IMG/VR virus record: IMGVR_UViG_3300026518_000670
Span: 1 to 55,640 of that record
Source: a virus
Direction: 5' to 3' (one strand)
Length of the DNA: 55,640 bases
The stretch's first letter is position 1. Each line of letters opens with the position of its first letter. The notes beneath the pieces are model-generated. The model saw only the letters and a list, made by a program, of their open reading frames with translations, did no database searches and was not told where the DNA came from. Below are positions 5,801 to 55,234 of the stretch, piece after piece. The translations under genes and the position numbers were made by a program.

Positions 5801-8800
5801 GGGTCTCGGTAGTCGTGCTCAGGATGTCTTGTGGCGCTTCTTTGCGAAGGCCTTTCGCGCGTATGCGCTCACTGCGCGACCGTGCTGCCGCAGCTGCTCG
5901 ATTTCGGAGCTCGCCAGCTGATCGGAAGCCGATGAGGTAGCGGGCCTCATCGGCTGTGAGCGCGGCGGGGTCGACGTGGAACTGGTTTCTGATTTCATCG
6001 CCGTACCTCCCTTCAATTTGCTGCTTCAGCTTGGCATCGGCCCGCAGTGTACCGGATCGGCTGGCATTGGTCAGCACGGCGGTACCCACGACCTCTCCGC
6101 CATTGGCCTGAATGTAGCTGGCCAGGTCGGCCAGCGTGCCGCCCATCGTGGTGACGTCATCCACCAGCACGTAACGGCCACCTTCCTTCACCGGACCAGA
6201 GAAAGTGGAACGCGCAATCATTCGCTCCATGGCGTTGGCACCGGTGTGCAGCGTCCTGTTGGTCTGGACGATTTCCGTGTCATCGGTGCCACCTGTGTGT
6301 TCTGCAAGGTAGGCAGCCAGGGTTCTGGGTATGGCGTTCTTGCCCGTCGCTTCCTCGGCATGGGGCGCCACGAAGATCGCATCTGAGCCAAACTTCTCAG
6401 CCTGCTTGGCCAACGGTGCAGCCACCTCAGTTACTAGGTCCACGGCTGCCTGCATATCGCCGGCTTTGGCAGCGGCATAGTGTGGGTTTCGCTTGAGTGG
6501 CTGCATGTTCCGCCACAGGGCTATCGGATCTGATGCCTCGTCCGGGATGCCCTTGGACCGGGTCTGGTCTGGCAGGGAGAATCGAATGTCCGGATTATTG
6601 GAGTCAAATGTCCCGCGGTTTTCCGTTGCACTCTTGATCTGATTGGCCTTGAAAGCCACCCACTGCCTGGCTTCGGGAATGTGGATGCCGTCATAGCCTT
6701 GGGACTGAAGCTTGTCTCTCAGCGCCCGCGCCTCTTTCTGGCTGTCGATTGCCATCAATTCGTCGAGTGTCATGGACTTCGGTTTCTTGATCGACAAGTA
6801 GGCGTCAATCACGCGCTCATCTGCCGGTACGCCTTGGCTTGCGGTTTCAGCATAGCGCTGAGCACTGGACCTTTTTTCGGCAAAGAAATGCCCGAGTGGC
6901 GCTGTCATGTGCCCGGTATTGTTGCCAAGGCTTGCGTCATCGAAGGTGTAGAAGCCCTCGGATGTGCCGTGATAGACCATCTTCGGCTGACCGTCTGGCG
7001 TCGTGACCTTGGATCCGTCGAAGAACTTGCGGAACGCCGGCGACGACGTGGGCTCGGCCTGCGCGAACGAAATGGCGCCCCCGCCGGCGACCGGCCGCGA
7101 GTCGATGGTATCGCCGGTCTGTAGGAAGCGCTCCGAGCGCACCAACAGTTGCCGCAGCTCATCCTCGGACAGCTTCAGTGAGGGCATGAAGCGGCGCACG
7201 AACGCGTGCACGGCCGCGACGACCCGGTCCATTATGCCGTTGCGCACGCCCTTTTCAGCCATGACCGCCAGGGTTTCCTCCGCGAAGGTGCCGGGGTCGA
7301 CGTCGCCATACCTGCGGCTGACCTCTGCCAGCACGTCCCGCATGGCCTTGCTTCCCTTGCCCTGCTCGCGAAGATCCTGGATGGACTGCGCAATCTTGTC
7401 CCAAGCGCCGGCGCCCAGCGCGTCGTCGACGATGCGGTCGATGCCATAGTGGCCGATCGCCTCGTGCGCGAGTACCTGGTGCACGCGCTCGGAGCTCTTC
7501 AAGTTCGGCGCGACCAGGTAGATGGTGCGGCCGTCATAGAAGCCCTCGGCCGAACGCCAACGCGGATCCGTCTTGGCATCGGCCGGGAGCTGGCGCGCGC
7601 TTTCCAGGACGTGCACCTTCGGCATGTCTCCGCGCCATTTCTCGGTGACCTTGTCGACCGCCGCTTGCGCGCGCTTGTAGGTGTCCGATCCGACCGGAGC
7701 CGTAGCCACACCCACCTGTTGCGCCTCGCTGGGCTCCTGGAAGCTGTAGAAGTGACCGGCCATTGTCTGCTGGCCACGTGCAGCTGCGGAATTGAAGAAT
7801 TTGGTCGTGGACGTGGTCTTCCCGTCTTCGGGGGTAAACACGTCCAGCGCACGAATCCCCATGTCATTGATCAACCGACCGAGATTCTGGGCGGGCTCGA
7901 GTTTGTCGGCCATGATGATGCCGGCGCTGGCATTCGCCTGCGTCAGAATGGATGCAATCCGCGCGCTGCCCGAATCGGTACGGCCGGTCCGGAGCTTCGC
8001 CATTTCACTCATCGACACCGGCATGAACCCGATGACGTTGTGCCTGTTGTTCAGCAGGATGACCCCGGGTTCCTTGAACTTGCGCGCAATTTGGGGCGCA
8101 TCTTCGGGCGACGTGATCTTGAACGCTCCGAACTGCTTGGTGATCCGGCGATATCGGCGTTCCAGGCGCGGCACGGTCCCGGTGCGCGCCGCAGTCGTGA
8201 TCTTGGACCGGAAGCCGCCCACCGCGCCACCTTCCTGATAGAACGACGCATCGGTTTCCCCGGGCGCCACGGTAATCATACCGTGCGCAGTGATCCCGCT
8301 TCCTTTCATCAAGTCGATCAACGTGTCCGTGATGTTCTTGTCGGCGCGGCTCTGGTCCACATTTCCGCTGGGGTGGTTGTGCGCGAACCAGACGTCAGTG
8401 GCACCGGGAATCTCTGCCACGGAACCGAAGACCAGGCCGGGATTGACTGTGGCGCCGTCCGCGATTCCGATTGTGTGCCGGAGCACAGCCAAGGGCCGGC
8501 CGTCGGCATCGGCCACGACGGCCAGGAACTGTTCCTGGGGGGATTTGCGCAGGGGCGCGATGATGTGCGCGGCATCTTCCCAGCGCGTGATGCGCTTGAT
8601 GCCCGACCGGAACTGGCCGGTGGCGACCTGCTTTACGTGCTGGGTGAGCTCGAGTGCTCCGCGTCGGGTTGCGGCCTCGGACTCGGGGTTTCCGCTCTGG
8701 GCGAATAGGTCGAGCTGACCAGGTACGGGGCTTCCGGCCCGCCGTCCAGACGGAGCGGTAGATTCAGATACACCAGATTGCCGTACCTTGCTGAGCTTTC

Positions 8801-11800
8801 CATAGGATGCGCCTCCGGCGGGTAGCGTGGTGGTGGCGTCGGGGAAACCAGATGCTCGGACATCACGCGAGAAGGTCATGGCCTGGATACGGGAGACCCG
8901 GGTGTGGTAGCTATCGCGCGCGCGCAGGTACTGATTCGAGCGCACAAGGAGCTGCTCGAGCTCGGCCCGCCCGACCTTCCAGCTGGGCATGATCTTGCGG
9001 ATGAACTTGTGAATGGCACTAATTGCCCGATCCAGCCAGGCGTTTCGCACACCCCACTCGGCCAAAACAGCCAGTGTTTCAGCGGCGAATTCAGACGATC
9101 CTGTGCTGGAACCGTACCGTCTCTGCACCTCGGCGATCACACTCTCGATGCGGCTGAGACCTCGATTGATGTCCTTGCCGGCGGCAGCGTTCTGTTCCTG
9201 CTTCTGCAGCACGCGATCGCGCATGCCCTGCACCGAGGTGGCGACCCTGTCCCATGCGCCAGCGCCCAGCTCGTCATCGATGATACGGTCGACTCCGTAA
9301 TGGCCGACCGCCTCGTGCGCCAGCGTGCGCTGCACGTCGGCCTTGTCGAACAGGTTGGATGCGACCAGGTAGAGCGTGCGTCCATCGTAGAAGCCCTTGG
9401 CGCCTTTGTAGCGCGGATCCGTCTTCGCCGAGCCCGGAAGTGCCTCGCCATCATCGACCACGTGAACCTTGGGCTGCTGATTGCCCCACGCGCGCGTCTG
9501 CTGTGCGACGACGTCCTGCACCTTTCTGGCATGCGCGGCACGTGCATTGCGTGCCTCCGCATCGACCCCGGAGAGATTGTCACGACTCAGCGAGAACAGC
9601 TTCACGTTTCCTTCGGGCGTCTTCTCGCTGTCGATGGTGTTGAAGAATTCGTCGTAGGCCGCACGGATCGCGGGGATTTCGTCGGCCGTGGGATACGGGT
9701 AATCACCGTTGCGATCGAATGCTTCTCCGCTTACCACGTTTGCCAGGTAGTCATTGGCAGCGTTCTGGTCCTTGAGCTTGCCAATCACGTACGATTCGAA
9801 TGCCCGCGCCGACATTTCGCGCCCGGTCGACCAGTATTTCTTGCTCTTGATCTTGTCCAGGCGTTCGGAGCGCCGACGCACGTCGCTTTCAGCGATCGTG
9901 TTCTTGATGCGCACGAATGCGCGCGTGAGCTCGTCGCGCACACCCGGGACAGACTGGCGGCCGGACTCCGTCATGAATCCATCGGGGGATCGACGATCGG
10001 TTCGGCGCTTCTGGAAGTGGTTGTCCAGGGCGTGCCACCATTCGTGCGCCAGCGATCCCGGACCGCCATGCTTGGTGAGGTTGATCACCACGGCACGGGA
10101 CTCGAAATGTGCCGCCGCTGGGTTCTTTCCGCCCTTGCCGCGCGCCCCGAAGGCCAGACCGAGCTCACCATTCAGCGAGAGCGCGGCCGGGGGGATTTCC
10201 AAGACACCGGCCATATCCATCAGCGCGTCGTAGGCATTGTTGAGGTCCTGCTGCCTACGCGCGTACTCCACATAGTTGCCGAACTGGACACCACGGAAAC
10301 CGAAGGTGTCGCTGAACTGCTGCGGCGTGACGTCAGCACCATCGCGGTGATCAATGCCGATGCGGGTCTCGTTTTCGGCGCGGCGCACGGCCGGCTTCTC
10401 GCGCATCTTGGCCACGCGCTCAATGAGAGCTTCGCGATTTTCGTTCAGATAGGCGCGAGCCTTCTTCAGCGCTACGCTCTTATCCGCATCGTCGAAATGC
10501 TCCATGTCGATCGCGTCGCGCGGGATCTTCAGGCCGATGAAGTATCCTAACTTTCCCGGTCTGGCGTAGATGATCAGTGGCGGCTGACGCTTGGCCTTCT
10601 GCTTCTTCTGCTTCAGCTCCGGCAGCTTCTTCTTGAATTCCGCCAGGGCCTCTTCGCGCGTGTTTCCGACGGCCATCTGGTTGGGCCAGTTGCCGAAGAC
10701 ATTGCTGCGTCCCTTCTTCTCGATGGACCATTTCGAGACGTTCTCCTCCCCCCTGAATAGGGCGTAATGGTTCTGTTGGAAGGTCACCCCCTGAAGCGAT
10801 ATGTCGTGTCCGATTTCCTGGTACAGCTCCATTCGGCCTCGGATGCCACGGTTCAAGACTTCGCGTTCGGGTTTGCTCATTTCCTCCCGCACGCGCTCCC
10901 ACGACACATCGCCAGATAGAAGGTCTTGGGCAAACCCACGCAGCAGCTTCACTGAATCAACCCATCCCCTGAGCTTCCAGCCGCGCGGCTTCCGCGGAAT
11001 TTCGTCGCGGATGGCGTGTACGAAAGACACAACCTCGGGATCGACGCCGTTCTCGAGCAACTTCTCGTATTTCGGAGCCGGCCAGCTCTCCGAGAGAGGC
11101 GTTTCGGCAATGTCTGCTTCGCCAGCCCTTTTCAAGGCATCGACGTACTCGGTGCCGTAGTGCTTGCGCGCGCCGTGCAGGGTCTGGCCGAAATCTTCGA
11201 TCTTTTCGCCCTTTTCGGTCGCTGTCTTGTCGGTACCGGGGTCCTTCACCGTCTGCTGCGGCGCGGCCTTGTTGTTGCCGGCCGGGATCAGGGCATTGAT
11301 CGCCTTGTTCGCGGCCTTGTCGTCCATGTGCATGTAGTAAAGGTCGTCGACGGCTGCCGCGATCTGCTGCGCCGAGACGCCGGCGTCGACGGCGCGCTCG
11401 ATCAGGCTGCTGTCAAGCCGGTCGTACTTGTTGGCCAGGGTCATGGCCATGTTGTCGTGCGCGTTGTTCGCCATGAAGAACGAATAGGCAAAGCCCTCGG
11501 GGGTCACGCTGCGCGCGTTCTTCGTGGCCTGGCTCTTGCCGCCGTACTTCTGATGCATCTTGGAGCCTTCGGTGGGCTCCACGGGCGCGATCGGCAGATC
11601 CGCGTTGAAGCGGCCCCACAGCAACGTCTTCTTCGTGTACGGGTCGCCCAGATCGTTAGGGTTGAACGACAGGCGCCACGGCGGCAGGCCGCCAAGCTTT
11701 TCGATGCGCCCGACCGGGTTCTCGATCGCCCAGACCGCAGGCTTGAAGTATTCGATGGTCCGCAGGGTCTGATGCACCAGCTTGACGCTTGAGACGGTGC

Positions 11801-14800
11801 GGCCGTCAGCGTCTTTCGCCGCAAAATGGCGGGCGCCGGACACGGCGAAGTCCGTGCACGGGCATGCCGCAAGAATGGCGTGCACGTCAAGGCCGTCGAA
11901 GCTTCCGAACAGTTCGTTGAAAAAATCCACGCTGAAGTTATGGATGTCCCCGACCTTGCGTTCCTTGCCGTTCGCATCCGTGAAAGTGCCGGTGTCCTGG
12001 ATGTCGAAGCGATAGACCTGGTAGCCGGCTTCCTCCCACGGCTTTGACCACTGACCTGTCAGGTCAAACAGCGACAGCACGATCTTCTGGCTGTTTTCGT
12101 TGCGTATTTCCGTGTCCGCGCCTTGCGCGGCGGCGTGCGCTCGCCACTTGGCGATCTTCTGCTTGGCTTCCTTGACCGACATCCAGCCGTGCTCGTCCGT
12201 GTAGACCTTGGCCTTTTTGTCGAGGCGTTCAATCTCGGATTTTGCCGGCGGCTTGAAGATGTTCGTTACCGCCTGGCCGTCCTCCATCATGCTCTTCTGA
12301 GCCTGATTGAACTCCTGAACGATCTGGCCCAGCTCGCGATCGTCGGCGCCGACATGGACATGCTCGGGGGCGGTGGCGTTGTCGAGCGACTTCTCGTATT
12401 TCTCTGACGGCCGCGAGTACATGATGCCATCGGGCGTTTCGGCGCGCGTCCATCCGTCTTGGGCCTGCCGGCGCTTGAGCGCGTACAGCAGGCGATTTGT
12501 ATCGCCCTTGCTATTGCCCTCTTTCCAACCCTTCTTGAGCATGACAGAACGGACGAAATCGCCCGAATTCTCGCCTTCTCTTGGCAAGATCAACAGCTCG
12601 GCCTGACCGCTTGTTTCGATCATGCGCCGTGCGGTGGGCATGGAAAGGTTAAGCCGCGCATCAAATCCGGCCGGATCCAGGTGCAGCATCACACCACGGT
12701 TCTGTCCCTGGCCAAGAGCCAGATCCCGCGTGCTGGCGGCAAACTTCTCGTTTAGCCCGGGGCCGGAGCTCCTGCGCATGCCTTCCATAAGCTCCACGGC
12801 GCCATGCGCGTTCGTTTCCCGGTACAGGTCCGTGGTGACCTTGTCCGCCGGACGCATGGGGTTGTACTTGGGTATCTCGTGCCGTTCGAGCTCGGTTTGT
12901 GCCGAAGGGTCGGCCGCGCTCGCATCCGGCGCGCGCTCGCTGACCGGATTCGATGTGTCGCCGTTGTGCAACCAGTCCTTGAATTCGGCCATGGACATGT
13001 CGTTCACGGGTCCGACCTTCCAGCCCTTGTCGAAGTTGGACAGGTACGCAGCTATGGCCTGTTTCTCGCTGTCAAAGCCGATCATGGCTTTGTGCTCGTC
13101 GAACTTGCCAGTCTTCTGGTCGATCTGATCGACCACATAGACGCGATCGCTGTCCGGGTTCGGGCCCACGTAGACGTCGACCTGTTCGTTGTCGGCTCCC
13201 ACGGTGCGTTTCACGTATCCGTAGTGATCGCTCATCGTGTTCGACCAGGCCTTGCCGTCCTCACTCACACCGCTGCGCGTGGATCCGCGCGGGTTCTCGA
13301 TGCTGATGTCCAGACCCTGCACCGAGACGTGGCCTTTCTTGTAGTTGCCCGCATCCTTCTGGGCATCCGTGGGCTCCGGCGCTTCGTTATTCGGCGATGA
13401 GGCTGCTTCTTTGGCTGCCGATTCGACCTTCGCGGCCGTGTCAGCTGGCTTGGCATTCTCCTTGGCCGGTGCCTTGATCTCGGTTTCCGGCACAGCTTTC
13501 AGGCCCTGTTCGATATCGTCCGGGTGCTGCTGCATCAGGACGGATTGCGGATCCCTGAGCTGCGCCGGTTTTGTCTCACCGATCGCTTTCAGCGCTATGC
13601 GTGCCTGCTCATCGCTGAGCGCCTGCACCTTCGGACGCAGCGCCTCAGCGCGCGCGCTGAGCTCTTGGCTGGCCTGGGACGGGTTTTTCTGTTGTTCCTG
13701 GTATCTGGCATGCGCAGCCTGCGCTTTAGGGGAAGGCTGGGCCGGATTGAGCGCCTTCTCAATAGCTGCATGGTCCTTGGCATCGAAGCGCAGGCCTCCG
13801 GCCTTGAGCGCGCGGCCCTTCTTCTTGAATCCCGCCTTGCTGAGCGCGGCACGAATCGCCGCCGGGTCGCCGTGCACGACCAGCCCCTTTGGTCCCTTCT
13901 GCGTGATCTTGAACGACTGGCCGGCGGACTGAGGCGCGGCATTCTCGGACGACTGCGTCTTGGCTTCCTCGGGCGCCGGCGCCGGTGTCGGCGTTTTCTC
14001 CGGAATCGGGGGCTTGGCTACTTCCCGGGCTTTCTCGCCGCCGGCAGAACCAGCTTGGGTTCCTGCACGTCGAGCTTGTTCCCCGCCGACACCACGGCCT
14101 GCATCATGGCCCTGTCGAGCTCGGGGCTCGCTTGGTTTGCCTGCCGCGTTGAAGAGGGTTCCTGCCTGCTTCGGGGCGCTTTCTTCGCTCCCATACCGTT
14201 TCTCCTGGTCCCTGCGGACCATGTCGATGACATCGGCGGCCGCGAGCTTCGGTGCACCGAACATATCATCATTGCTGGCGTGCTGCTGGTGGCGTTGCAC
14301 AATCTCTCCGGCATACCGCAAGCCTTCGGCCATGCGCTTGGCCGATCGCGCGTTCGCCGCGAAGAACTCGGCCCAGGCATCGCCTGACGTGTCGCGCCCG
14401 ACAAGATCGCCCTGCGCGAGCAGCTTCCCGACCTTCTGGCCATTGTTGTGGGCCTGATGGATGACGTTCATCGCCGCAGCGAAGCGCTGCGCGTAATCGC
14501 CCATCGGCCCCTTCGGGTCGATTTTCGCCCACGTCGGCGCGGCGATGACCAGTGCGTTGAGTGCGTTCCTGGCATCGGGGTTCGTTTCCTCGGCCTGCGC
14601 GGCGATCAGCTTCGGATCCCCGTACGCCTTGGCGAAGATCGCGGCGCGGAGCCGGTCGAAGTACGCCTTGTTGGCCGCGCCGTCGGCCGTGACCAGTTGT
14701 CCGCGCTCGGCCGGGCCAAGCGCGTTCAGGAACTTGCGGTGGAAGGTGGCGCTCATGTTGGTGGAGATTCCACCATCGGCTGTCAGCGGCAGGTCGGCCA

Positions 14801-17126
14801 GGTCTGGGAGCGCGCGCGCATCGGTCTGCGCTTGTTCGGTAGGGGAAAGTCCCAGGCTCGTCGAGGCATTCGATGCCGCACCCATGTCGCCCTGGTTGTG
14901 CTTGGCGTCGTACAGACGCACGACCATCGGCCGTTCCTTGGACTGGATCGCGGACGGCGAAATGCCAAGCATTTGCGTATCGTCGATCAGGCCCTGCTTG
15001 TAGTCCTTGCCGTTTCCGCGCTTCCACGCGGCCTGGATGCCTGCGGTGCGGCCGTTGTTCAGGGCCTGCAGTGGAGCATTGGCGTAATCGCTGTTGACGG
15101 TGCCATCTGCGTGATGGGATGCGGCCACAGTGTTGGCGTCGACGACCGCGTACTGCACCGGAATGGATCGGCCATCAGCCAGCCTCACCTGGTCGGTCTT
15201 GCCTCTGTCCTCGGCCGGCACGGCCTCGTCAGGCGTCTTCGACGCTACCATCGGCGCGCCCGAGTTGGCGTCGCGCGAGAACGACAGACGCGTCGGGTCC
15301 GGGTTCTTGGCGATTTCCTGCATCTGGACGACGCTGGCTGCCCTCGATCGGTCACGGTTCTGCAGCGTGGCTCCCTCCGGCGCCGCGCTCTGTTCTGTGC
15401 CTGCGGCTACCGCCTGTGACTGCTCGGCCTTGGTGGCCGCCGTGGCGGTATCGGGCGAGGACTGCAAATCTGCCTGCATCTCGTCGAAGTTCCGTGTCGC
15501 CGGCTCAAGCGGACGGTTTGCTTGCAAGGCCTCCCCCATCATGCGACTTGCCGGGCGACGGGCTTTCTTGATTTCGGATTCGGATACGCCCCATGCCTTG
15601 GCCAGCTCGGGCACGTTGATGCGGGTGGACCGATGCGCGCGCCACTGCGCATCGATTTGGTGGGCCAGCTGCCGCACCAGCTGGCCTGGATGCGGAGCAT
15701 GGGCTTCTCCGGTGTCTTGATCGATCCATGCGGCCGGTAGCGGCTCTACCAGGGCCGGCTTCTCAGCTTTGACTGAATTTGCTGCGGGGCGGGTTGTTTC
15801 GCCAGCCTGATTGTCTGGGCCGGCCACCGTGCCCGTCACCTTTGCACCCTCAGCTGCTGTCTTTGAGGCTGCTTCGGCCAGTGGATCGATTTGATTGGCC
15901 ACATCGCTGATACTGCCCGGTGCGGCGCCAGGGAAGCGTTCAACAACGGGTTCACCGGCATGATCTTGGGTGTGCGAAGTGCGATGCAAAACACCTGCCG
16001 GCGCATCGAAGACACCACCACCCAGCGCACCGGCTGCGCCACTTTCGAAGTAATCGCGCCAGGCATCCGGGCCCGTGGTTGGTGCACCGCCGCCCACACG
16101 CTCAAGGTACGACTGGGCCACCTCCGTACTGCCCTCACGCGCAGCGCCGCCAAGTGCCTCGCGCGCCACACGTCGCAAGACGCTGCCGCCCTTCGGGCTG
16201 GCATGCAGAAAGCGCCCGAGATTGATGGCTTCGGCAGCGGTATCAATGGAGCCCGCAACAATGCCAGCCCCGACTGCCTGCGCGGCCTGGCCGCGCGATA
16301 TGTCTTGCGGGTTCACACCCTGATCGAGACGATTTTCCACCGCCTGACCCGTTTCCAGCGCTGAATTGAGTCCGGTAGCGCCAAGCACACCGCCCAGCTT
16401 TCGAGCCTCGGCGGTTCCGGCATCGCGGATGAGCTTTGCGGCTCCTGCCTCTGCCACATCCTTGCTGACACCCTTGGCCAGTTGATTCTCGACATAGCGT
16501 TCGGCAAGTTGCCTGGCCTCATGCAAAAGAGCCTTTTTCCCGACCAGACCCGCAGCTCCGCCAGTGATGGCGCCGGCGACATTCCCCGCCCCTGGCACAC
16601 CCGACCCAACTGTGCCTCCGATGGCTGCTCCTCCAAGCGCCGTAATAGCTGACTGTAGGGCCTGACCGGAAAGGTTGCCAAGCGTCGATCCGGCCCAGTC
16701 ACCGAATTTTGCTTTGCCCTTGAACACATCTTCCAGGCTGGGGCCAGCCAATGGCTCGCCTTGCTTTTTCCCGTACCGGTACAGACTCGCGCCGTAGCGG
16801 GTGAGCTTGGGGCTATCAATCAGCTGGCCGGCCGCGATACCGGCCGCACCCAGCAATTCCTGGTCCTGTGGAATGGTTTGCTGCAACCCGCGCTTGAAGG
16901 ATGTCCCGAACCCACTCGAGCGCGACTCATCGACCGATGGTGATGCAGGCGAGCCCGACTCCAGCATCGTGAAACCTTGAGGTGGCGTAGGACGCTTGAG
17001 CGTAGGTGGCGACGATGCAGAAGGCTTCGAAGTGCGGGCGCTGGTATCAGTGTTGTCTTGCTGTACGGGATCGAGGACACGAAACCCGGATGGCGGAGCA
17101 AGGAGGTCAGTCACAGCGGTATCCAT
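2832..17126 (-). CDS. Giant polyvalent virion protein (4764 residues, multi-enzyme)
   Basis: One uninterrupted frame of 14.3 kb. Modules visible in order (approximate residues): Pro/Ser-rich N-terminus; Gly/Ala-rich possibly membrane-active stretch (150-215); DdrB-ParB-like domain (613-980); inorganic-pyrophosphatase-like polyvalent domain (1265-1390); C5-cytosine-methyltransferase-like domain with PC (AACPCTDFA, ~1754) and ENP (~1803) motifs; LPD1-type domain with HEWWHALD (~2361); zincin-like domain with HEAVGHYGVD (~2602); RadC/JAB-type MPN domain with HNHPSG (~2915); a second zincin copy with HEAIGHYGID (~3220); ART-type domain starting YHGTSEGF (~3382); phosphoribosyltransferase motif VLVDDVTTMGGT (~3652); long helical LPD38-like C-terminus (4200-4700). 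Polyvalent proteins are thought to be packaged and ejected with phage DNA to counter host defences. It overlaps the upstream structural gene by 16 bp. Individual activities are inferred from motifs. Confidence 0.85.
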   Translation of the reverse strand: MDTAVTDLLAPPSGFRVLDPVQQDNTDTSARTSKPSASSPPTLKRPTPPQGFTMLESGSPASPSVDESRSSGFGTSFKRGLQQTIPQDQELLGAAGIAAGQLIDSPKLTRYGASLYRYGKKQGEPLAGPSLEDVFKGKAKFGDWAGSTLGNLSGQALQSAITALGGAAIGGTVGSGVPGAGNVAGAITGGAAGLVGKKALLHEARQLAERYVENQLAKGVSKDVAEAGAAKLIRDAGTAEARKLGGVLGATGLNSALETGQAVENRLDQGVNPQDISRGQAAQAVGAGIVAGSIDTAAEAINLGRFLHASPKGGSVLRRVAREALGGAAREGSTEVAQSYLERVGGGAPTTGPDAWRDYFESGAAGALGGGVFDAPAGVLHRTSHTQDHAGEPVVERFPGAAPGSISDVANQIDPLAEAASKTAAEGAKVTGTVAGPDNQAGETTRPAANSVKAEKPALVEPLPAAWIDQDTGEAHAPHPGQLVRQLAHQIDAQWRAHRSTRINVPELAKAWGVSESEIKKARRPASRMMGEALQANRPLEPATRNFDEMQADLQSSPDTATAATKAEQSQAVAAGTEQSAAPEGATLQNRDRSRAASVVQMQEIAKNPDPTRLSFSRDANSGAPMVASKTPDEAVPAEDRGKTDQVRLADGRSIPVQYAVVDANTVAASHHADGTVNSDYANAPLQALNNGRTAGIQAAWKRGNGKDYKQGLIDDTQMLGISPSAIQSKERPMVVRLYDAKHNQGDMGAASNASTSLGLSPTEQAQTDARALPDLADLPLTADGGISTNMSATFHRKFLNALGPAERGQLVTADGAANKAYFDRLRAAIFAKAYGDPKLIAAQAEETNPDARNALNALVIAAPTWAKIDPKGPMGDYAQRFAAAMNVIHQAHNNGQKVGKLLAQGDLVGRDTSGDAWAEFFAANARSAKRMAEGLRYAGEIVQRHQQHASNDDMFGAPKLAAADVIDMVRRDQEKRYGSEESAPKQAGTLFNAAGKPSEPRARQGHDAGRGVGGEQARRAGTQAGSAGGEKAREVAKPPIPEKTPTPAPAPEEAKTQSSENAAPQSAGQSFKITQKGPKGLVVHGDPAAIRAALSKAGFKKKGRALKAGGLRFDAKDHAAIEKALNPAQPSPKAQAAHARYQEQQKNPSQASQELSARAEALRPKVQALSDEQARIALKAIGETKPAQLRDPQSVLMQQHPDDIEQGLKAVPETEIKAPAKENAKPADTAAKVESAAKEAASSPNNEAPEPTDAQKDAGNYKKGHVSVQGLDISIENPRGSTRSGVSEDGKAWSNTMSDHYGYVKRTVGADNEQVDVYVGPNPDSDRVYVVDQIDQKTGKFDEHKAMIGFDSEKQAIAAYLSNFDKGWKVGPVNDMSMAEFKDWLHNGDTSNPVSERAPDASAADPSAQTELERHEIPKYNPMRPADKVTTDLYRETNAHGAVELMEGMRRSSGPGLNEKFAASTRDLALGQGQNRGVMLHLDPAGFDARLNLSMPTARRMIETSGQAELLILPREGENSGDFVRSVMLKKGWKEGNSKGDTNRLLYALKRRQAQDGWTRAETPDGIMYSRPSEKYEKSLDNATAPEHVHVGADDRELGQIVQEFNQAQKSMMEDGQAVTNIFKPPAKSEIERLDKKAKVYTDEHGWMSVKEAKQKIAKWRAHAAAQGADTEIRNENSQKIVLSLFDLTGQWSKPWEEAGYQVYRFDIQDTGTFTDANGKERKVGDIHNFSVDFFNELFGSFDGLDVHAILAACPCTDFAVSGARHFAAKDADGRTVSSVKLVHQTLRTIEYFKPAVWAIENPVGRIEKLGGLPPWRLSFNPNDLGDPYTKKTLLWGRFNADLPIAPVEPTEGSKMHQKYGGKSQATKNARSVTPEGFAYSFFMANNAHDNMAMTLANKYDRLDSSLIERAVDAGVSAQQIAAAVDDLYYMHMDDKAANKAINALIPAGNNKAAPQQTVKDPGTDKTATEKGEKIEDFGQTLHGARKHYGTEYVDALKRAGEADIAETPLSESWPAPKYEKLLENGVDPEVVSFVHAIRDEIPRKPRGWKLRGWVDSVKLLRGFAQDLLSGDVSWERVREEMSKPEREVLNRGIRGRMELYQEIGHDISLQGVTFQQNHYALFRGEENVSKWSIEKKGRSNVFGNWPNQMAVGNTREEALAEFKKKLPELKQKKQKAKRQPPLIIYARPGKLGYFIGLKIPRDAIDMEHFDDADKSVALKKARAYLNENREALIERVAKMREKPAVRRAENETRIGIDHRDGADVTPQQFSDTFGFRGVQFGNYVEYARRQQDLNNAYDALMDMAGVLEIPPAALSLNGELGLAFGARGKGGKNPAAAHFESRAVVINLTKHGGPGSLAHEWWHALDNHFQKRRTDRRSPDGFMTESGRQSVPGVRDELTRAFVRIKNTIAESDVRRRSERLDKIKSKKYWSTGREMSARAFESYVIGKLKDQNAANDYLANVVSGEAFDRNGDYPYPTADEIPAIRAAYDEFFNTIDSEKTPEGNVKLFSLSRDNLSGVDAEARNARAAHARKVQDVVAQQTRAWGNQQPKVHVVDDGEALPGSAKTDPRYKGAKGFYDGRTLYLVASNLFDKADVQRTLAHEAVGHYGVDRIIDDELGAGAWDRVATSVQGMRDRVLQKQEQNAAAGKDINRGLSRIESVIAEVQRRYGSSTGSSEFAAETLAVLAEWGVRNAWLDRAISAIHKFIRKIMPSWKVGRAELEQLLVRSNQYLRARDSYHTRVSRIQAMTFSRDVRASGFPDATTTLPAGGASYGKLSKVRQSGVSESTAPSGRRAGSPVPGQLDLFAQSGNPESEAATRRGALELTQHVKQVATGQFRSGIKRITRWEDAAHIIAPLRKSPQEQFLAVVADADGRPLAVLRHTIGIADGATVNPGLVFGSVAEIPGATDVWFAHNHPSGNVDQSRADKNITDTLIDLMKGSGITAHGMITVAPGETDASFYQEGGAVGGFRSKITTAARTGTVPRLERRYRRITKQFGAFKITSPEDAPQIARKFKEPGVILLNNRHNVIGFMPVSMSEMAKLRTGRTDSGSARIASILTQANASAGIIMADKLEPAQNLGRLINDMGIRALDVFTPEDGKTTSTTKFFNSAAARGQQTMAGHFYSFQEPSEAQQVGVATAPVGSDTYKRAQAAVDKVTEKWRGDMPKVHVLESARQLPADAKTDPRWRSAEGFYDGRTIYLVAPNLKSSERVHQVLAHEAIGHYGIDRIVDDALGAGAWDKIAQSIQDLREQGKGSKAMRDVLAEVSRRYGDVDPGTFAEETLAVMAEKGVRNGIMDRVVAAVHAFVRRFMPSLKLSEDELRQLLVRSERFLQTGDTIDSRPVAGGGAISFAQAEPTSSPAFRKFFDGSKVTTPDGQPKMVYHGTSEGFYTFDDASLGNNTGHMTAPLGHFFAEKRSSAQRYAETASQGVPADERVIDAYLSIKKPKSMTLDELMAIDSQKEARALRDKLQSQGYDGIHIPEARQWVAFKANQIKSATENRGTFDSNNPDIRFSLPDQTRSKGIPDEASDPIALWRNMQPLKRNPHYAAAKAGDMQAAVDLVTEVAAPLAKQAEKFGSDAIFVAPHAEEATGKNAIPRTLAAYLAEHTGGTDDTEIVQTNRTLHTGANAMERMIARSTFSGPVKEGGRYVLVDDVTTMGGTLADLASYIQANGGEVVGTAVLTNASRSGTLRADAKLKQQIEGRYGDEIRNQFHVDPAALTADEARYLIGFRSAGELRNRAAAAARSRSERIRAKGLRKEAPQDILSTTTETPPNGGVSGSGRRNFSLPDASVNTMSSVLETPDQSAWERAKGWLTGKWEDIKPATLGALQLRHVLELAEEHPALKGARQYADINQRMDADRNQLMTGSPDASEHPNSMLMKGVAPIADQWRGWAFHKGIKGMRGGLTEHAKRLNKLMHDATILGLDPSEEYTRLSMEDSRGELSEWTPEKIKDRIRALRGQMRGRPGDDKTLMMDEVKRLRAIPAREKLREKRWPTLVARWNALPESARETYRQVRNWYREHADATERALLERIDAMDVPETYRRSMKDRIRFQFESNRREGVYFPLDRNGDYWLSATDSNNQYAFKMFESAAELKAAESKLRKAGFTIEATGRRDSSARAKDAPSGTFVKDIIGMLQKARVSEKVQDDIYQMFLKSLPEMSMRKRSIHRRSVPGFSDDALRAFAKNGFHGAHQLARLRYSQQMSTVLEAMQISLDNYRRSSEFGESTKAEGLSAAKGDALLTELKRRHDWIMSPKDSQLANMATSIGFMYYLGASPASALVNLTQGAQVTLPVLAAKHGWGKASRELGRATAAALRTGGNIMRTLNEEEKRAYKVLERRGDIDRTNAHTLAGTAEGNVLTSNPGWAKVMNVMSWMFHKAEVVNREAAGVAAFRLARADGKSFDEAVRHASDTINGTHFDYSNANRPRFMQNGVSKVLLQFKNYSVGMTWLMYRNLYQAVRGQSPEVRRLARRTLTGMLGMTALLAGTVGLPLFNLMKMVANAAHAAAGDDDEPWDFETEFRQWLAEHFGQTGADVIADGAVDRLGLHISSRVSLSNLWFRDADRQLEGKDAYYNMLESIAGPMGGMVKNWFIGQQYITQGHIWRGVERMIPTAAKSGMKALRYAAHGVNTLRGDPILEDPSAENALVQALGFTPTNLADQYRINSALYNYSDQIKNRRTSLMNAFAMAVHEHDDQARQVALKKIRSFNAKNPAIAITTKTLVQSLRQRARLSAQAEHGVVLSQRVRQMAQREAGISVVH

Positions 17127-49021: not shown

Positions 49022-50074
49022 ATGTACAAGTCCATTTCAGTCGAAGTCGACGTCGATGTGTCTGACGTGATCGACATGCTTGACCCAGACGATCTGCACC
49101 AGTTCGGGTTATCGGAAATCGATGTCCGAAGCGCGCACAAAAGCCCATGGATCGACGTGCGCTTAGCCGTCCTCCGCGGCGATCGTGCCGGCGGCAACCA
49201 CAAGATCCTTCCGGCGTCGGTCGTCAACGCAGGCGTGGCCGACAAGGTCCGCAAGATCGCCGAGGCCGAGGGCCGGCGCGTCGGCAGCCGCGAGCGCAAG
49301 CGCATCAAGCAAGCCGTCTTCGACGAGCTCATGCCTCGCGCATTCTCCCAGCCTTCCAGTCTGCAGGTCTGGCTGGACCTCACCAACGGATGGGCCGCGA
49401 TCGATACCAGCAGCCGCAAGGCCGCCGAATCGGCAATCAGCATGGTGCGCGAGGCCCTGGGCAGCTTCCCGGCGGTGCCACTGGCGCCCGAGCGCTCCGT
49501 GCGCCAGGTGCTGACCCACTGGCTGCAGACCGGCGACCTGCCGCCCGGCCTTGTGCTGGGCGATGAATGCGAGCTGCGCGACGCGGCCAACGCCGGCGGC
49601 GCGGTCACCCGCAGCCGGCATCAGGAGCTGGAGTCGGACGAGATCCGCGAGCACCTGCGCGCCGGAAAGCAGGTCTACCAGCTGGGCCTCGAATTCGACG
49701 AGCGCCTCGGCTTTGTCTTGGACGAGGCCCTGACCGTGCGCAAGCTCAAGCTCTTCGACGTGGTGGAGGACCAGCTCGACACCAGCGGCGCCGAGACCAT
49801 CGCCGACGATCTCGGCGCGCGCGTGCGCCAGCTCGAGACCTTCATCGGCACCGAGGCTCACGCGGCGCTCACGAGATCGAGGCCGTCGACGTCAGCGCCG
49901 GTCAGAAGGACGACATCGTCGCGCTGGCCAAAGCCACCGGCGCCGACCTGGCCGCAGAATGGAAGGTTACCGAGGACTGGCTGGCCACGATTTCCAAGCC
50001 CGCCCTGCTGGCTGGCTGCCACCGGCCCTGCGCGAGAAGGAGAAGCCGCGCCGCAAGAATGTCACCGGCGGTAA
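49022..50074 (+). CDS. Chimeric RdgC-like protein
   Basis: 350 residues. Residues ~62-285 match RdgC in motif order: HKILPASVVN, FDELMPRAFS, VWLDLTNGWAAIDT, LPPGLVLGDECELRD, HLRAGKQVYQLGLEFDERLG and LKLFDVVED. RdgC is a ring-shaped DNA-binding protein that limits RecA. The usual RdgC N-terminus (a FFRNL-type opening of about 55 residues) is replaced by an unrelated acidic segment (MYKSISVEVDVDVSDVIDML). After ~284 (AHAAL) the frame reads a Pro/Arg-rich, non-RdgC tail because it has entered the remnant of another gene in a shifted frame. A deletion-made fusion is likely; DNA binding may be lost. Confidence 0.6.
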   Translation: MYKSISVEVDVDVSDVIDMLDPDDLHQFGLSEIDVRSAHKSPWIDVRLAVLRGDRAGGNHKILPASVVNAGVADKVRKIAEAEGRRVGSRERKRIKQAVFDELMPRAFSQPSSLQVWLDLTNGWAAIDTSSRKAAESAISMVREALGSFPAVPLAPERSVRQVLTHWLQTGDLPPGLVLGDECELRDAANAGGAVTRSRHQELESDEIREHLRAGKQVYQLGLEFDERLGFVLDEALTVRKLKLFDVVEDQLDTSGAETIADDLGARVRQLETFIGTEAHAALTRSRPSTSAPVRRTTSSRWPKPPAPTWPQNGRLPRTGWPRFPSPPCWLAATGPAREGEAAPQECHRR

Positions 50075-50129
50075 GGCCGCCGCAGCCAATGACCAAGAGG
50101 AGGCAGACCGTGATGCTGCAGGCGCTTGA
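49868..50129 (+). pseudogene. 3' remnant of a ParB-like gene, frameshifted
   Basis: In the frame one base off from the RdgC part, 49868 to ~50012 reads AHEIEAVDVSAGQKDDIVAL, AKATGADLAAEWKVTEDWLA and TISKPALLA, like the C-terminal end of phage ParB-like proteins. Continuing in the third frame from ~50013 it reads WLPPALREKEKPRRKNVTGG and ends at a TGA (50127-50129). The frame switch sits in a GCTG repeat (GCTGGCTGGCTG), a likely slippage point. The N-terminal ParB domain is absent. The first part is also translated in another frame as the end of the RdgC chimera. Confidence 0.5.
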
Positions 50130-50358
50130 AATGGGTGCCCGTGGGCTACCTTCACGTGGCCTTAAGCCGGCGGCCGAGTTGGCCAAAGTCCGGCCGCACG
50201 GTACGCGCCTGAAATACGTCGGTGGCTGCCGGTGTGATGCGTGCCGGTCAGCAAACTCCGCCTACGAGCGAGATCGTCAACTGGCGCGAAAGCATGGCGA
50301 CTGGAATGGCCTGGCGAGCGCTCGACGCGCGCGCCGACCCAGGGTAGTCCAGCCATGA
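50113..50358 (+). CDS. Small Cys protein with HGTR/GCRCxxCR motif
   Basis: 81 residues from the ATG preceded by GAGGAGG at ~9 nt. The core KVRPHGTRLKYVGGCRCDAC, then RSANSAYERDRQ, is a motif found in many short phage proteins, with the GCRCxxCR cysteines likely binding zinc. The C-terminus is Arg-rich and seems short relative to others of the type (it ends soon after HGDWNGL), which may reflect a truncation. Coupled to the next gene by ATGA. Function unknown; a nucleic-acid role is plausible. Confidence 0.55.
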   Translation: MLQALEMGARGLPSRGLKPAAELAKVRPHGTRLKYVGGCRCDACRSANSAYERDRQLARKHGDWNGLASARRARRPRVVQP

Positions 50359-50699: not shown

Positions 50700-50785
50700 A
50701 ACCGACCATCATTGTCGCCGGCCTTGGCCGCTGCGATGGCGACGCAATGGACGCTTTAATCCGCGTTGACTTGCAAGCCCTCTAA
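50696..50785 (+). pseudogene. 29-codon remnant cut by the cassette insertion
   Basis: The ATG overlaps the upstream stop (ATGA). The first residues MKPTIIVAGLGRC match the usual start of a phage sulfotransferase/P-loop-like protein, after which the reading changes to unrelated residues and stops at a TAA ~17 bp before the first cassette core site. It looks like an N-terminal stub of a once longer gene. A free 29-residue peptide gene is the alternative. Confidence 0.4.
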
Positions 50786-50828
50786 CGATCTCGGACGCAG
50801 TGTTATGCGCCACCTACCGGAAAACGAA

Positions 50829-51047
50829 ATGAAAGATGACCGTGCAACATCCATCGAACTGATACGCGACGACTACGACGATTTTGTGCACCCGTACCCG
50901 TGGCGCTTCGCGATCACCCACAAAGGCAAGAGGCACGAGTTTTGCGGGGCGCCAAACAAATGCAAAACACCTGGAGCCGCATTGCGCAGGGCACAACAAC
51001 GACTGAAATGGCTCGAAGACGGCACCTACGCCGAACGCTACAAGTGA
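50829..51047 (+). CDS. Cassette A protein (72 residues)
   Basis: Starts MKDDRATSIELIRDDYDDFV; a GGAAAA site precedes the ATG. An in-frame ATG at 50805 lies inside the core site GTTATGC and would add MRHLPENE. The product is mixed: beta-rich in the middle (WRFAITHKGKRHEFCGAPN) and helical at the end (AALRRAQQRLKWLEDG). It ends one base before the attC. Typical small cassette ORF of unknown function; I do not recognise a family. Confidence 0.55.
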   Translation: MKDDRATSIELIRDDYDDFVHPYPWRFAITHKGKRHEFCGAPNKCKTPGAALRRAQQRLKWLEDGTYAERYK

Positions 51048-51048
51048 C

Positions 51049-51108
51049 GCATAACGATTGCGATAAGCCGCCGCGCTTTTTGCGGTCGGCTTAATTAGCT
51101 GGTTAGGT
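51049..51108 (+). repeat. attC recombination site
   Basis: 60 nt: R'' GCATAAC at the left and R' GTTAGGT at the right. In between, AAGCCG-CCGC pairs with GCGG-T-CGGCTT leaving one extrahelical T, a hallmark of folded attC sites. The left half and right half (...GGCTTAATTAGCTG) resemble the aadA1 attC closely by eye. The site is intact. Confidence 0.85.
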
Positions 51109-51111
51109 GCG

Positions 51112-51291
51112 ATGATTGACTGGGCACGAATAAACGACTTGATTGAATGCTCGGCCTGTGGCGGTACTGGACAGAATGAGCGAATACCAGACGACCAGCG
51201 GAAAGCATGGATTGAGCCATGCCCCTGGTGCAAAGAGCGCGGGTATTTCCTGCCGGGAGAAAATAATGGGATACGAACCGAAACTGACTGA
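51112..51291 (+). CDS. Cassette B small zinc-finger protein (59 residues)
   Basis: MIDWARINDLIECSACGGTG, then a CPWCKERGYF knuckle: two CxxCxxxG units (CSACGGTG at 13-20 and CPWCKERG at 37-44) similar to the DnaJ central zinc fingers. The start lies 3 bp after the cassette boundary, which is characteristic. It overlaps the next ORF by 26 bp in another frame. Could bind zinc and act as a small chaperone-like or regulatory protein; function unknown. Confidence 0.5.
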   Translation: MIDWARINDLIECSACGGTGQNERIPDDQRKAWIEPCPWCKERGYFLPGENNGIRTETD

Positions 51292-51544
51292 ACGGGAACG
51301 CGGAATATGGCGCATGGCGCTAACGCTGGCGAATAATATCTGTGTGCGCGAGAGCGACAGAATGAACGCCGATGATTACACCGCCGAGGCACAGACGGCG
51401 GCGGATTGCGCGAAAGCAATACGCGACTGGCTTGACACCGATGACGAGCATCTTGCGCGGATGCTGCGTGATGCAGGGGTGCGCGAATACCCTGACCCGA
51501 TATGCGAGGCGCTGAATAGTGGTAATGGTTCATACCGGCCTTAG
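51266..51544 (+). CDS. Cassette B second protein (92 residues)
   Basis: A GGGAGA site precedes the ATG. The product is helical (MGYEPKLTERERGIWRMALT, then LANNICVRESDRMNADDYTA, a further helix CAKAIRDWLDTDDEHLARM). The stop lies 1 bp before ACCTAAC, the R'' of its own attC. Two ORFs in one cassette is less common but known. Compositionally it is less GC-rich than phage neighbours. No family recognised. Confidence 0.5.
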   Translation: MGYEPKLTERERGIWRMALTLANNICVRESDRMNADDYTAEAQTAADCAKAIRDWLDTDDEHLARMLRDAGVREYPDPICEALNSGNGSYRP

Positions 51545-51545
51545 C

Positions 51546-51570
51546 ACCTAACGCCGCCTTAACCGGCGCG
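51546..51570 (+). repeat. Truncated attC at the right end of cassette B
   Basis: The R'' heptamer ACCTAAC is followed by GCCGCCTTAACCGGCGCG, which looks like the left half of an attC, but no complementary right half or GTTRRRY core follows. Phage sequence with the AGGAG site of the next gene begins at about 51571. The break fixes the cassettes in place. Confidence 0.6.
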
Positions 51571-51587
51571 GCCACAGGAGATTGACG

Positions 51588-52061
51588 ATGTGTGACCTAC
51601 TCACAGACCCTTACATGGACGCCGCGCGCGCGCCAGCCGGCTACAGCAAGCCCCAAGTAGGCGCTCTGACGCGTTTCAGCCACAAGGGAGGCACGTTCAA
51701 CACTTACCTGTCGGATCTCCGACGAAGTGGCTTCCTGGACGAGCATGACGGCCTGCTGTTTGCCTCGGTGTACGGCATCCAAGCGCTGGGCGCCGATGTG
51801 CCGATCGCGCCGAAGAGCCACGACGACGTCATGGCGCAGTGGCAGCGCGCGCTGCGTGCCGGCGCGTTCCGGATCCTGCACAGCATCGTTGCCGCGGGTC
51901 CGGCGGGTATCAGCCGCCAGGACTTGGCCCTGGCCGTCGACATGACGGCCAGCGGGGGCACGTTCAACACGTACCTGTCCGATCTTCGCCGCAACGGCCT
52001 CATCACGGATCGGGACAGCATCTGCTATGCGAACGACATCCTTTTCCCGGAGGACCCATGA
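51588..52061 (+). CDS. Tandem winged-helix protein, probably N-terminally shortened
   Basis: 157 residues from the ATG with ACAGGAG at 7 nt. Two copies of a GGTFNTYLSDLRR-x-G motif (residues ~34-47 and ~123-136) each end an HTH-like unit: SKPQVGALTRFSHKGGTFN and SRQDLALAVDMTASGGTFN. The second copy has the full preceding helix (RALRAGAFRILHSIVAAGPA), while the first lacks it, so its start was probably lost at the cassette junction 18 bp upstream. DNA binding expected; role unknown. Overlaps the next gene (ATGA). Confidence 0.55.
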   Translation: MCDLLTDPYMDAARAPAGYSKPQVGALTRFSHKGGTFNTYLSDLRRSGFLDEHDGLLFASVYGIQALGADVPIAPKSHDDVMAQWQRALRAGAFRILHSIVAAGPAGISRQDLALAVDMTASGGTFNTYLSDLRRNGLITDRDSICYANDILFPEDP

Positions 52062-52977: not shown

Positions 52978-53881
52978 CCGCAAACCCATCCTGTGCCTCG
53001 ACTTCGACGGCGTCATCCACGCCTACACGAGCGGCTGGAAAGGTGTTACTCGCATTCCCGACCCCCCGGTCCCTGGCGCGCTGCAGTTCATCGTGGCCGC
53101 GCTGGACCGGTTCCAGGTGGCCATCTACTCGAGCCGGTCCCGGACCTGGTTCGGACGCCAGGCCATGCGGGCGTGGCTGCTCAAGCACCTGATCGACCTG
53201 TCGCCTAACACCCCGCAGGAGGCCCCGGACTGGTGGTACCGGCGTGTCGCGCGCACGGCCTTCGCGGATCCGTGGTCCGAAGAGGTGATCTGGGCGGCAA
53301 AGAACGTGTGCCGGGAAATCCTGTGGGCCAAGCACAAGCCGCCGGCTACGGTCAGCATCGACGATCGCGCGCTGCTGTTCGACGGCACGTTTCCGTCCTT
53401 GGACATGCTGGCCAGCTTCCAGCCCTTGACCAAGCGCTTCGTAGGCGTCGACCACGGATCCGATGATCTGACATGTATGGTCACGGCCGACCGGGACGAG
53501 ATCGGAACGATCGGTCATGTTGACCACGGCAAGACGACGCTTGCGGCGGCGCTGACGAAAGTCGGAATGCAACAGCCGCCCGCTTGGGAAGACAGGAATC
53601 TTATCGAGCTCGCGGCCAAAGTTGCGGGGTACGAATCCGAAGGCTATGAAGACGGCGGTTGGCTGGTGATGCGGTACGGACTGCATACCGCTTTATGGAT
53701 TCCCGCGATCGAGCGGTATTGGAATCCCCTCGAAGATGACGGCGACGCGCTGCGCCTGGCGGTGATGCTGAATCTCAGCTTCGAATCGAGTCCGACGGAG
53801 GAACTGCACGGAACAGATCGGTACGCCGCCACCCGCAAAGCGATCGTCATGGCTGCGGTCGCCATGGCCGAGGATTGCTGA
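52970..53881 (+). CDS. Fused HAD-like / EF-Tu-type P-loop / ABA-sandwich ORF
   Basis: 303 residues in three parts. Residues ~1-160 are HAD-like: ILCLDFDGVIHAY with the catalytic Asp pair, IYSSRSRTWFGRQAMRAWL and VSIDDRALLFDG. Residues ~180-200 read EIGTIGHVDHGKTTLAAALT, the exact form of a translational GTPase G1 loop, but no G3/G4 motifs follow. Residues ~205-303 (DRNLIELAAKVAGYESEGYE to the WNPLEDDGDALRLAVML block) resemble the phage ABA-sandwich (DUF2591) domain. In other phages these tend to be separate genes, so a deletion-made fusion is likely. Function of the whole is unclear. Confidence 0.6.
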   Translation: MTDRKPILCLDFDGVIHAYTSGWKGVTRIPDPPVPGALQFIVAALDRFQVAIYSSRSRTWFGRQAMRAWLLKHLIDLSPNTPQEAPDWWYRRVARTAFADPWSEEVIWAAKNVCREILWAKHKPPATVSIDDRALLFDGTFPSLDMLASFQPLTKRFVGVDHGSDDLTCMVTADRDEIGTIGHVDHGKTTLAAALTKVGMQQPPAWEDRNLIELAAKVAGYESEGYEDGGWLVMRYGLHTALWIPAIERYWNPLEDDGDALRLAVMLNLSFESSPTEELHGTDRYAATRKAIVMAAVAMAEDC

Positions 53882-53894
53882 GGCATCGCTATCC

Positions 53895-54107
53895 ATGGCA
53901 CAAGGGATCCTTTCTACCGCTGAGCTCCTGAAGGCGACTGGCTACAAGCGGCCAGCCGATCTCGCGAGCTGCCTGCAGCGCCAGGGAGTGCGGTTTTTCG
54001 AGGGGAGGGATGGACCTTGGACGACGATCGGACTGATCGAAGCCGCCGGTGGCCTGCGACCGGCCGGGAACGATGCAGGCGAGATGTACGGAGCGACTAT
54101 CCTGTGA
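53895..54107 (+). CDS. DUF4224-like protein, possible excisionase or recombination accessory
   Basis: 70 residues: ILSTAELLKATGYKRPADLA, SCLQRQGVRFFEGRDGPWTT, ending soon after. The [LI]-x4-E-[LI]-x2-[AL]-TG-[YR]-K/R pattern and RxxQGVxF segment fit DUF4224-type small proteins that sit before phage integrases. It may be an Xis-like directionality factor or regulator. Its stop overlaps the integrase GTG (GTGA). Confidence 0.6.
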   Translation: MAQGILSTAELLKATGYKRPADLASCLQRQGVRFFEGRDGPWTTIGLIEAAGGLRPAGNDAGEMYGATIL

Positions 54108-55234
54108 AGCGCGGCCGGCCACGCAAATACGACGACACCATCCCCGCTCACATCGACCAGCGCAAGATCCCAGACGGGGTCTATTGGGACGCGCGCGATC
54201 GCATCTGGTACAACCGCCTCTCGCAGCCACGCCGTCTCGCCGGCCCGAAGGCAAGCCTGGCCGACCTGCATCGCCTGATCGAGCTTCGGCGCAACGGTGA
54301 TGCCGGCACCATACGGTCACTGCACGCGAAGTTCTGCGGCTCCGACGTCTGGAAGCACCTATCCAAGTCCACGCAGGACGACTACGACTACTGCCTGCAG
54401 GTCCTGGAGCGCCAGAAAACACGCCACGGGCAGCCCGTAGCTGCGCTGGAGGTCGACCGGCTGTCCCGTGTGCTGATCCAGCGCCTGGTCAGCCTGATCG
54501 GCGCGGAGCACCCTTCGAAGGCCGCGCACGTGCTGCGCTACCTGCGGCGCCTGATCAAGTGGGGCATGCAGCATGGCGAGTGCGCGGAGCGCGAGAACCC
54601 GGCCGCGGCCGTCGACGCGCCCAAGGAGCTCCGCGCACCAACCATACCGGACAAGGCCACCATGCGGGGCTACATCACGTTCCTGCGCGCGCATGGCGCG
54701 ATTCAAACCCGACGCAAGGGAAGTCTTCCACCCTATCTGTGGGCGCTGACGGAGATCGCCTACCGGTGCCGGCTACGCGGTGTTGAAGTGGTCAACCTGA
54801 CCGATGATCTGGAAACCAAGGAGGGACTGCGCACGGAGCGGCGCAAGGGCAGCCGGGACAACATCGTTGCCTGGTGTCCGGAACTACGGGAGGCGTGGGA
54901 TGCGCTGCACGAATGGCGGCGCGAGGTATGGGCCCGGATCCCGGGCTTCGTGATCCCGATTCAAGCATCCCGGCGCGTGCTGGTAGTCAACCAGGCCGGT
55001 CAGCCATTGCAGCGTGAGGCGCTCAAAAGTGCGTGGGATCGCGGCGTGCGCCTGGCCCTGGCCGAGGGCGTGCTGCAAAAGCGCTTCGGCATGCATGCCA
55101 TGAAGCACCGCGGCGTCAGCGACACCGCCGGCACCAGAGACGTCAAGCAGCAGGCGTCAGGCCACAAGGAAGCCCGCATGCTCGACGTCTACGACCACGA
55201 ACTGCCGCTGGTGAAGCCGGCCGGCATCGACTGA
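54104..55234 (+). CDS. int: Tyrosine integrase
   Basis: 376 residues from the GTG that overlaps the upstream stop; an in-frame start 29 codons upstream runs across that gene. Basic start (KRGRPRKYDDTIPAHIDQRK), a core-binding domain (DDYDYCLQVLERQKTRHG) and a catalytic domain with EIAYRCRLRGVEVVNL (first Arg), RRKGSRDN (Lys), FGMHAMKHRGVSD (His, with Lys where most have the second Arg), SGHKEARM (His) and YDHE (nucleophile Tyr). The HxxK variant is known in one phage-integrase group. Integrates the phage at an attB not identified here. Confidence 0.85.
   Translation: MKRGRPRKYDDTIPAHIDQRKIPDGVYWDARDRIWYNRLSQPRRLAGPKASLADLHRLIELRRNGDAGTIRSLHAKFCGSDVWKHLSKSTQDDYDYCLQVLERQKTRHGQPVAALEVDRLSRVLIQRLVSLIGAEHPSKAAHVLRYLRRLIKWGMQHGECAERENPAAAVDAPKELRAPTIPDKATMRGYITFLRAHGAIQTRRKGSLPPYLWALTEIAYRCRLRGVEVVNLTDDLETKEGLRTERRKGSRDNIVAWCPELREAWDALHEWRREVWARIPGFVIPIQASRRVLVVNQAGQPLQREALKSAWDRGVRLALAEGVLQKRFGMHAMKHRGVSDTAGTRDVKQQASGHKEARMLDVYDHELPLVKPAGID

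Follow-up and report, generated by a model that had tools for sequence, protein, structure and literature searches.

Background

Arrays of attC sites that lack an integron integrase (IntI) are already known from phage genomes. Qi et al. 2023 (PMC9892861) described such arrays, and five of the six phage attC bottom strands tested there were recombined by IntI1; the available part of that report comprises same-direction arrays and one with divergent attC. Both these clusters of attC sites lacking integron integrases (CALINs) in phages and insertion at attG sites are on record (PMC9892861 and PMC12444791). IntI recombines the bottom strand of attC, which sets the direction of insertion (PMC11023631). 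Here we analysed a 55,640-nucleotide stretch of viral DNA (IMG/VR record IMGVR_UViG_3300026518_000670, positions 1 to 55,640; hereafter the window), which carries, within a phage early operon, what is best called a decayed remnant of a two-cassette attC array. The locus belongs to a widespread class of phage cassettes whose open reading frames (ORFs) run opposite to their attC.

The phage arrays described below resemble those of Qi et al. in being attC arrays without IntI in phages, but they are inverted and lie in phage early regions, whereas the available part of that report mentions no inversion of ORFs relative to attC (PMC9892861). Unlike the inverted class, the cassettes of phage TJE1 are sense by the model used here. 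With the sedentary chromosomal integrons of the Xanthomonadales type, the phage arrays share the attC sequence type, the extrahelical bases and the heptamer rule; however, those integrons possess intI and sense ORFs, while the phage arrays have no intI, antisense ORFs and phage cargo (PMC12444791). The inverted sedentary chromosomal integron of Vibrio cholerae shows that the placement of the attC strand governs cassette excision (PMC11023631); what was inverted there, relative to replication, was the entire array, while in the phage arrays the inversion is that of each cassette's ORF against the attC of the same cassette. In their cargo (Lar, Mom, NinX, methyltransferases) and in lying beside the integrase and replication genes, the arrays match phage morons and early accessory operons. 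To our knowledge, morons have not been known to be formatted as site-specific cassettes. While CALINs in phages are established, the polarity-inverted class is apparently undescribed, as no description of it was found in the literature searched, which excluded subscription journals and preprints.

Results

From the letters alone, the first-pass annotation had proposed two integron cassettes in this region, each with a 5' R' core heptamer complementary to its own 3' R'' heptamer, and a 60-nt attC with an extrahelical base between them. The heptamers are indeed present (GTTATGC at 50802-50808 with GCATAAC at 51049-51055, and GTTAGGT at 51102-51108 with ACCTAAC at 51546-51552), and the complementarity between R' and R'' of the same cassette is 7/7 in both. 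As an Rfam scan of the window yielded no matching family, we built our own covariance model from 27 attC of the chromosomal integrons of G163, a member of the bacterial family surveyed, which show the pairing and the extrahelical bases typical of classic attC. This search, which had been suggested as a check on the locus, gave a score far above background: the stretch 51049-51108 (ACCTAACCAGCTAATTAAGCCGACCGCAAAAAGCGCGGCGGCTTATCGCAATCGTTATGC, minus strand) is the sole match in the whole window (23.8 bits, E 0.0016), and it was also significant in a search of 285 kb (E 0.0084). All of this signal comes from the minus strand; on the plus strand the model returns noise (4.2 bits).

Being symmetric under reverse complementation, the heptamer rule is blind to direction, whereas the extrahelical base does tell direction. 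In the window attC it is the minus strand that carries the extra A after GCCG, as chromosomal attC do, and hence the cassettes run on the minus strand while the three ORFs run on the plus strand, together with the surrounding phage operon. Although this site has what defines an integron cassette (R''/R' 7-mers, stem and extrahelical bases), it departs from the canonical layout, exemplified by the G163 integron, in which ORF and attC lie on one strand, an arrangement that is usual but not strictly required. Thus, the heptamer bounds of the two proposed cassettes stood, while the antisense orientation of the ORFs and the remnant state of the array, with only one attC intact, had been missed.

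The body of cassette 1 (50809-51048, minus strand), bounded by GTTATGC/GCATAAC, contains a plus-strand ORF of 72 amino acids (50829-51047, beginning MKDDRATSIEL). Its attC (50780-50808, minus strand; GCATAACACTGCGTCCGAGATCGTTAGAG, R'' GCATAAC ... GTTAGAG) is degenerate, with a stem deletion revealed by alignment with an intact homologue described below, and yields no model score on the minus strand. Cassette 2 (body 51109-51545, minus strand), bounded by the perfectly complementary pair GTTAGGT/ACCTAAC, is the only one that keeps an intact attC, and it holds two overlapping plus-strand ORFs: ORF a (51112-51291, 59 amino acids), with a DnaJ-type CxxCxGxG zinc finger and weak matches to PF00684 (E 8e-4) and to PF15777, Anti-TRAP (E 2e-3), and ORF b (51266-51544, 92 amino acids). 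The array would start, at 51546-51590 on the minus strand, with a lone R' GTTAGGT preceded by the half-attC-like CCGGTTAAGGCGGC, as judged by comparison with the attC consensus CCGCTTAACTCCAGCGTTAGGC. With one intact attC, a stem-deleted attC at its left end and a half site at its right end, the locus is a decaying remnant that falls below the usual CALIN rule (two or more neighbouring attC and no intI), since a single attC scores in the window; adjacent intI and attI, as in a complete integron, are absent from the window. We also considered the two ends of the array as the halves of one attC, but rejected this in favour of the stem deletion, given that the attC of cassette 1 is intact elsewhere.

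Evidence for the mobility of cassette 1 came from a DNA search of 234 genomes of the family, in which it was recovered at about 80-81% identity over its whole length in a single genome (G187), within a lambdoid prophage of another genus that possesses terminase, portal and tail genes. The array of this prophage (L035) comprises 11 attC, scoring 32-73 bits, and is flanked on one side by the gene for a C5 DNA methyltransferase, on the other by a phage integrase. The first-pass annotation had named relatives carrying the same ORFs without attC-like ends as a finding that would speak against it; instead, the G187 homologue is flanked by canonical attC of 49 and 73 bits. The attC of cassette 1 is intact there (48.9 bits), and the homology between the two copies starts exactly at the R' G/TT crossover and ends about 12 nt into the attC, past R'', where the window copy diverges; bounded in this way at the crossover, cassette 1 moved as a unit. 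Every clearly called cassette ORF of the G187 array is antisense to attC, the lone sense call being the stretch before the first attC. The cassette 1 protein (84% identity at the amino acid level between the two copies) occurs in G187 and nowhere else among the 234 genomes, and forms an orphan family of two members; cassette 1 had no match in GTDB contigs or phage records, searches of viral contigs with each cassette ORF gave none, and no relatives were found for ORF a or ORF b of cassette 2. Within the same G187 prophage array, a 231-bp cassette with its attC is present twice, at L035:15640-15926 and 16810-17096, the copies being 100% identical with unrelated neighbours; this is a recent cassette duplication.

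In five homologous cassette pairs, substitutions were assigned to codon positions. In the antisense frame, those at the third position numbered 28 of 44 (cassette 1), 44 of 71, 107 of 214, 42 of 79 and 58 of 123, whereas in the sense frame of the same pairs there was no pile-up at the third position. These comparative tests confirm that coding is antisense.

The survey was extended by scanning IMG/VR with two attC patterns, which yielded about 90 loci (42 and 216 model matches), polarity being assigned heuristically from the length of each ORF, its start codon and its Shine-Dalgarno sequence. In arrays without nearby IntI, 97 cassettes were antisense, 29 sense and 16 ambiguous; 34 arrays had an antisense majority and 9 a sense majority. 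In contrast, IntI-bearing stretches (host regions and three contigs) had 5 antisense and 45 sense cassettes, and in bacterial genomes of known name (Rhodanobacter, Oleiagrimonas, Pseudomonas composti and others), scanned separately, the figures were 4 and 44, respectively. The Fisher P value of the polarity contrast (about 1e-16) is descriptive only, as cassettes of one array are not independent. Five sense arrays without IntI (L058, L061, L062, L083 and L102) look like chromosomal integron ends, which is unproven, and were counted as they fall. IntI is absent from most phage contigs with arrays, and the neighbouring genes are those of phage replication, recombination and structure. Cassettes in phage genomes had been called rare, which understates their occurrence, for dozens of IMG/VR contigs carry such arrays. 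One contig (L073, IMGVR_UViG_3300024353_000004) displays two attC arrays on opposite strands, at 326-873 (+) and 12305-13682 (-), of which one was called sense and the other antisense; by codon positions, the first looks antisense as well.

The own-cassette heptamer rule also applies to the class. Leaving aside arrays thought to be chromosomal, the 5' R' of phage cassettes was perfectly complementary to their own 3' R'' in 84 of 125 cases (shuffled mean 15.9, maximum 28), as compared with only 19 perfect R''/R' pairs within the attC in situ. The GTT crossover is invariant in phage sites, and the 26 phage sites lying outside both scan patterns keep their extrahelical bases (A in 26/26 and C in 23/26). 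The cargo includes DNA methyltransferases, Mom, Lar, NinX, Sf6 gp66-type proteins, dATP/dGTP diphosphohydrolase and DUF4406. Both the window and the G187 prophage fit the class as we propose it (phage array, no IntI, ORFs antisense to attC, phage cargo), the window's own cargo being of unknown function.

The window belongs to contig C40 (176 kb), which has genes for terminase, portal, major head protein, helicase loader and endolysin. No IntI was found in the window, the sole over-cut-off match of a TIGR02249 search of its own genome being on another contig (C52), and the gene lying 2.5 kb to the right of the array (54101-55234, plus strand) encodes a phage tyrosine integrase, not IntI (phrog_1 integrase, E 5.5e-19; 36-44% identical to phage integrases). 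The proposal of cassettes within a phage early operon devoid of its own IntI was therefore borne out. On contig C52 the host genome harbors an intact integron integrase, with an attI-like start and at least one attC of 72 nt, and intI is intact in both sequenced hosts, G000 and G187. Of the host integron (L008:7760-9200), the assembly includes one or two cassettes before the contig ends.

Discussion

We interpret the window locus as a decayed array of inverted phage cassettes in the early operon of a temperate phage, recombined in trans by the host IntI, and assign to this reading a probability of roughly 0.7. Phage accessory genes would become bounded by attC sites whose polarity opposes the operon; the host chromosomal IntI would then work in trans on the bottom strand of attC in its folded form, excising, duplicating and inserting single cassettes between phages, with no IntI contributed by the phage. 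Since attC polarity fixes the direction of insertion, inverted cassettes could be read within the phage operon, yet in a host integron they would be antisense to its Pc promoter and hence silent, whereas host cassettes would be antisense inside the phage, so that the two pools would be functionally insulated. One possible reason for this polarity is that the bottom strand of attC coincides with the coding strand of the operon and, displaced as the non-template strand, could fold during transcription; an alternative idea invokes the replication strand.

That the ORFs of the whole class run opposite to attC suggests a pool of swappable genes that phages maintain for themselves, with the integron enzyme borrowed from the host. 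In its broadest form, this would amount to a phage cassette metagenome of inverted attC accessory and counter-defence genes, shuffled by host IntI between unrelated phages, with polarity silencing each pool in the other's platform, a proposal that we put at even odds. A counter-defence or protective role for the three window ORFs is plausible by analogy with Lar, Mom and the DNA methyltransferases of the class. The bacterial integron is a known store of anti-phage defences; if the above holds true, phages exploit it to build accessory and counter-defence operons without carrying the enzyme, and the polarity rule would offer a simple way of spotting, in genome sequences, new accessory and anti-defence genes of phages, while making cassette birth and attC strand choice testable questions.

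Several points weigh against recombination of inverted phage cassettes by host IntI. No recombination was observed, and the window has a single intact attC, so that the locus may be inactive. The significance of the polarity contrast is overstated by the non-independence of cassettes within an array; the calls themselves rest on an ORF heuristic that left 16 of 142 cassettes ambiguous, some of the contigs are of short length, their viral origin not being proven in every case, and in the group without IntI three were not individually screened for it. Inversion is not universal either, as the classic phage TJE1 illustrates. Furthermore, the cassette duplication could also stem from homologous recombination between attC copies. 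Shuffling as a whole could be ascribed to homologous recombination between attC repeats by phage Red/Erf/RecT rather than to IntI, and Erf, RecT and Bet-like recombinases do occur in these phages; yet adjacent attC often differ in sequence and the junctions follow the R' G/TT core, which makes this route unlikely in our view.

The attC of the phages are of the same type as those of host chromosomal integrons, as would be expected had the phage captured host chromosomal cassettes at a secondary, attG-like site, giving an ordinary CALIN of incidental polarity, for which the published phage CALINs and attG insertions offer a precedent. However, same-type host arrays are sense (45:5 and 44:4) while phage arrays are antisense (97:29), the cargo is phage-type, and none of the chromosomal integrons in the 234 genomes was found to contain cassette 1; this explanation is already disfavoured, and we consider it rather unlikely. 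A further reading takes the hairpins for elements of phage mRNA, serving as terminator, attenuator or processing signal, which either derive from attC or imitate it and have ceased to recombine; this seems quite improbable. Each strand of the site, folded alone as DNA, does give a stem stabler than most shuffles, and the stems separate genes with their own Shine-Dalgarno sequence, but the heptamer rule (84/125 against 16 in shuffled data), the invariant GTT crossover with conserved extrahelical bases, and the exact exchange and duplication of cassette units all point to site-specific recombination, and a terminator-like site was looked for there and none was found. As for chance inverted repeats without any cassette, the modest score of the window site might be invoked, but its E value and its standing as the only match in the window speak otherwise, and the G187 homologue, between its two high-scoring attC, refutes this view.

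Other features of the window

Upstream of the cassettes, the same operon includes an RdgC-type gene (49022-50074, plus strand; PF04381, E 4e-66), whose 3' end seems to run on in other frames (49870-50130), suggesting frameshifts or assembly errors. The AlphaFold2 model of the cassette 1 protein (predicted local distance difference test score 73) has three strands followed by helices; its fold gave only weak matches to nucleic-acid binders (dsRBD/AP2-like, E 0.14 or worse), which were not used as evidence. Beside the cassettes, a tandem winged-helix ORF (51588-52061) is similar to the C-terminal portion of a longer G163 gene of ATPase-like type (L037, about 8985-10640, minus strand); there are no cassettes at the G163 locus, and the ATPase part is missing beside the window cassettes.

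No close relative of the window phage was found, a megablast search against phage records returning one 54-bp match, and an empty site was not demonstrated. The match (52985-53038), at the start of a HAD-like gene, is 96% identical to Microcystis wesenbergii phage records PP395639 and PP438417, with otherwise no similarity. A phage integrase 44% identical to that of the window (L064:6317-7414) adjoins an attC at 8076-8131, which suggests a conserved position of the array beside int. At the left end of the prophage region, a minus-strand ORF of 4764 amino acids extends over 2832-17126.
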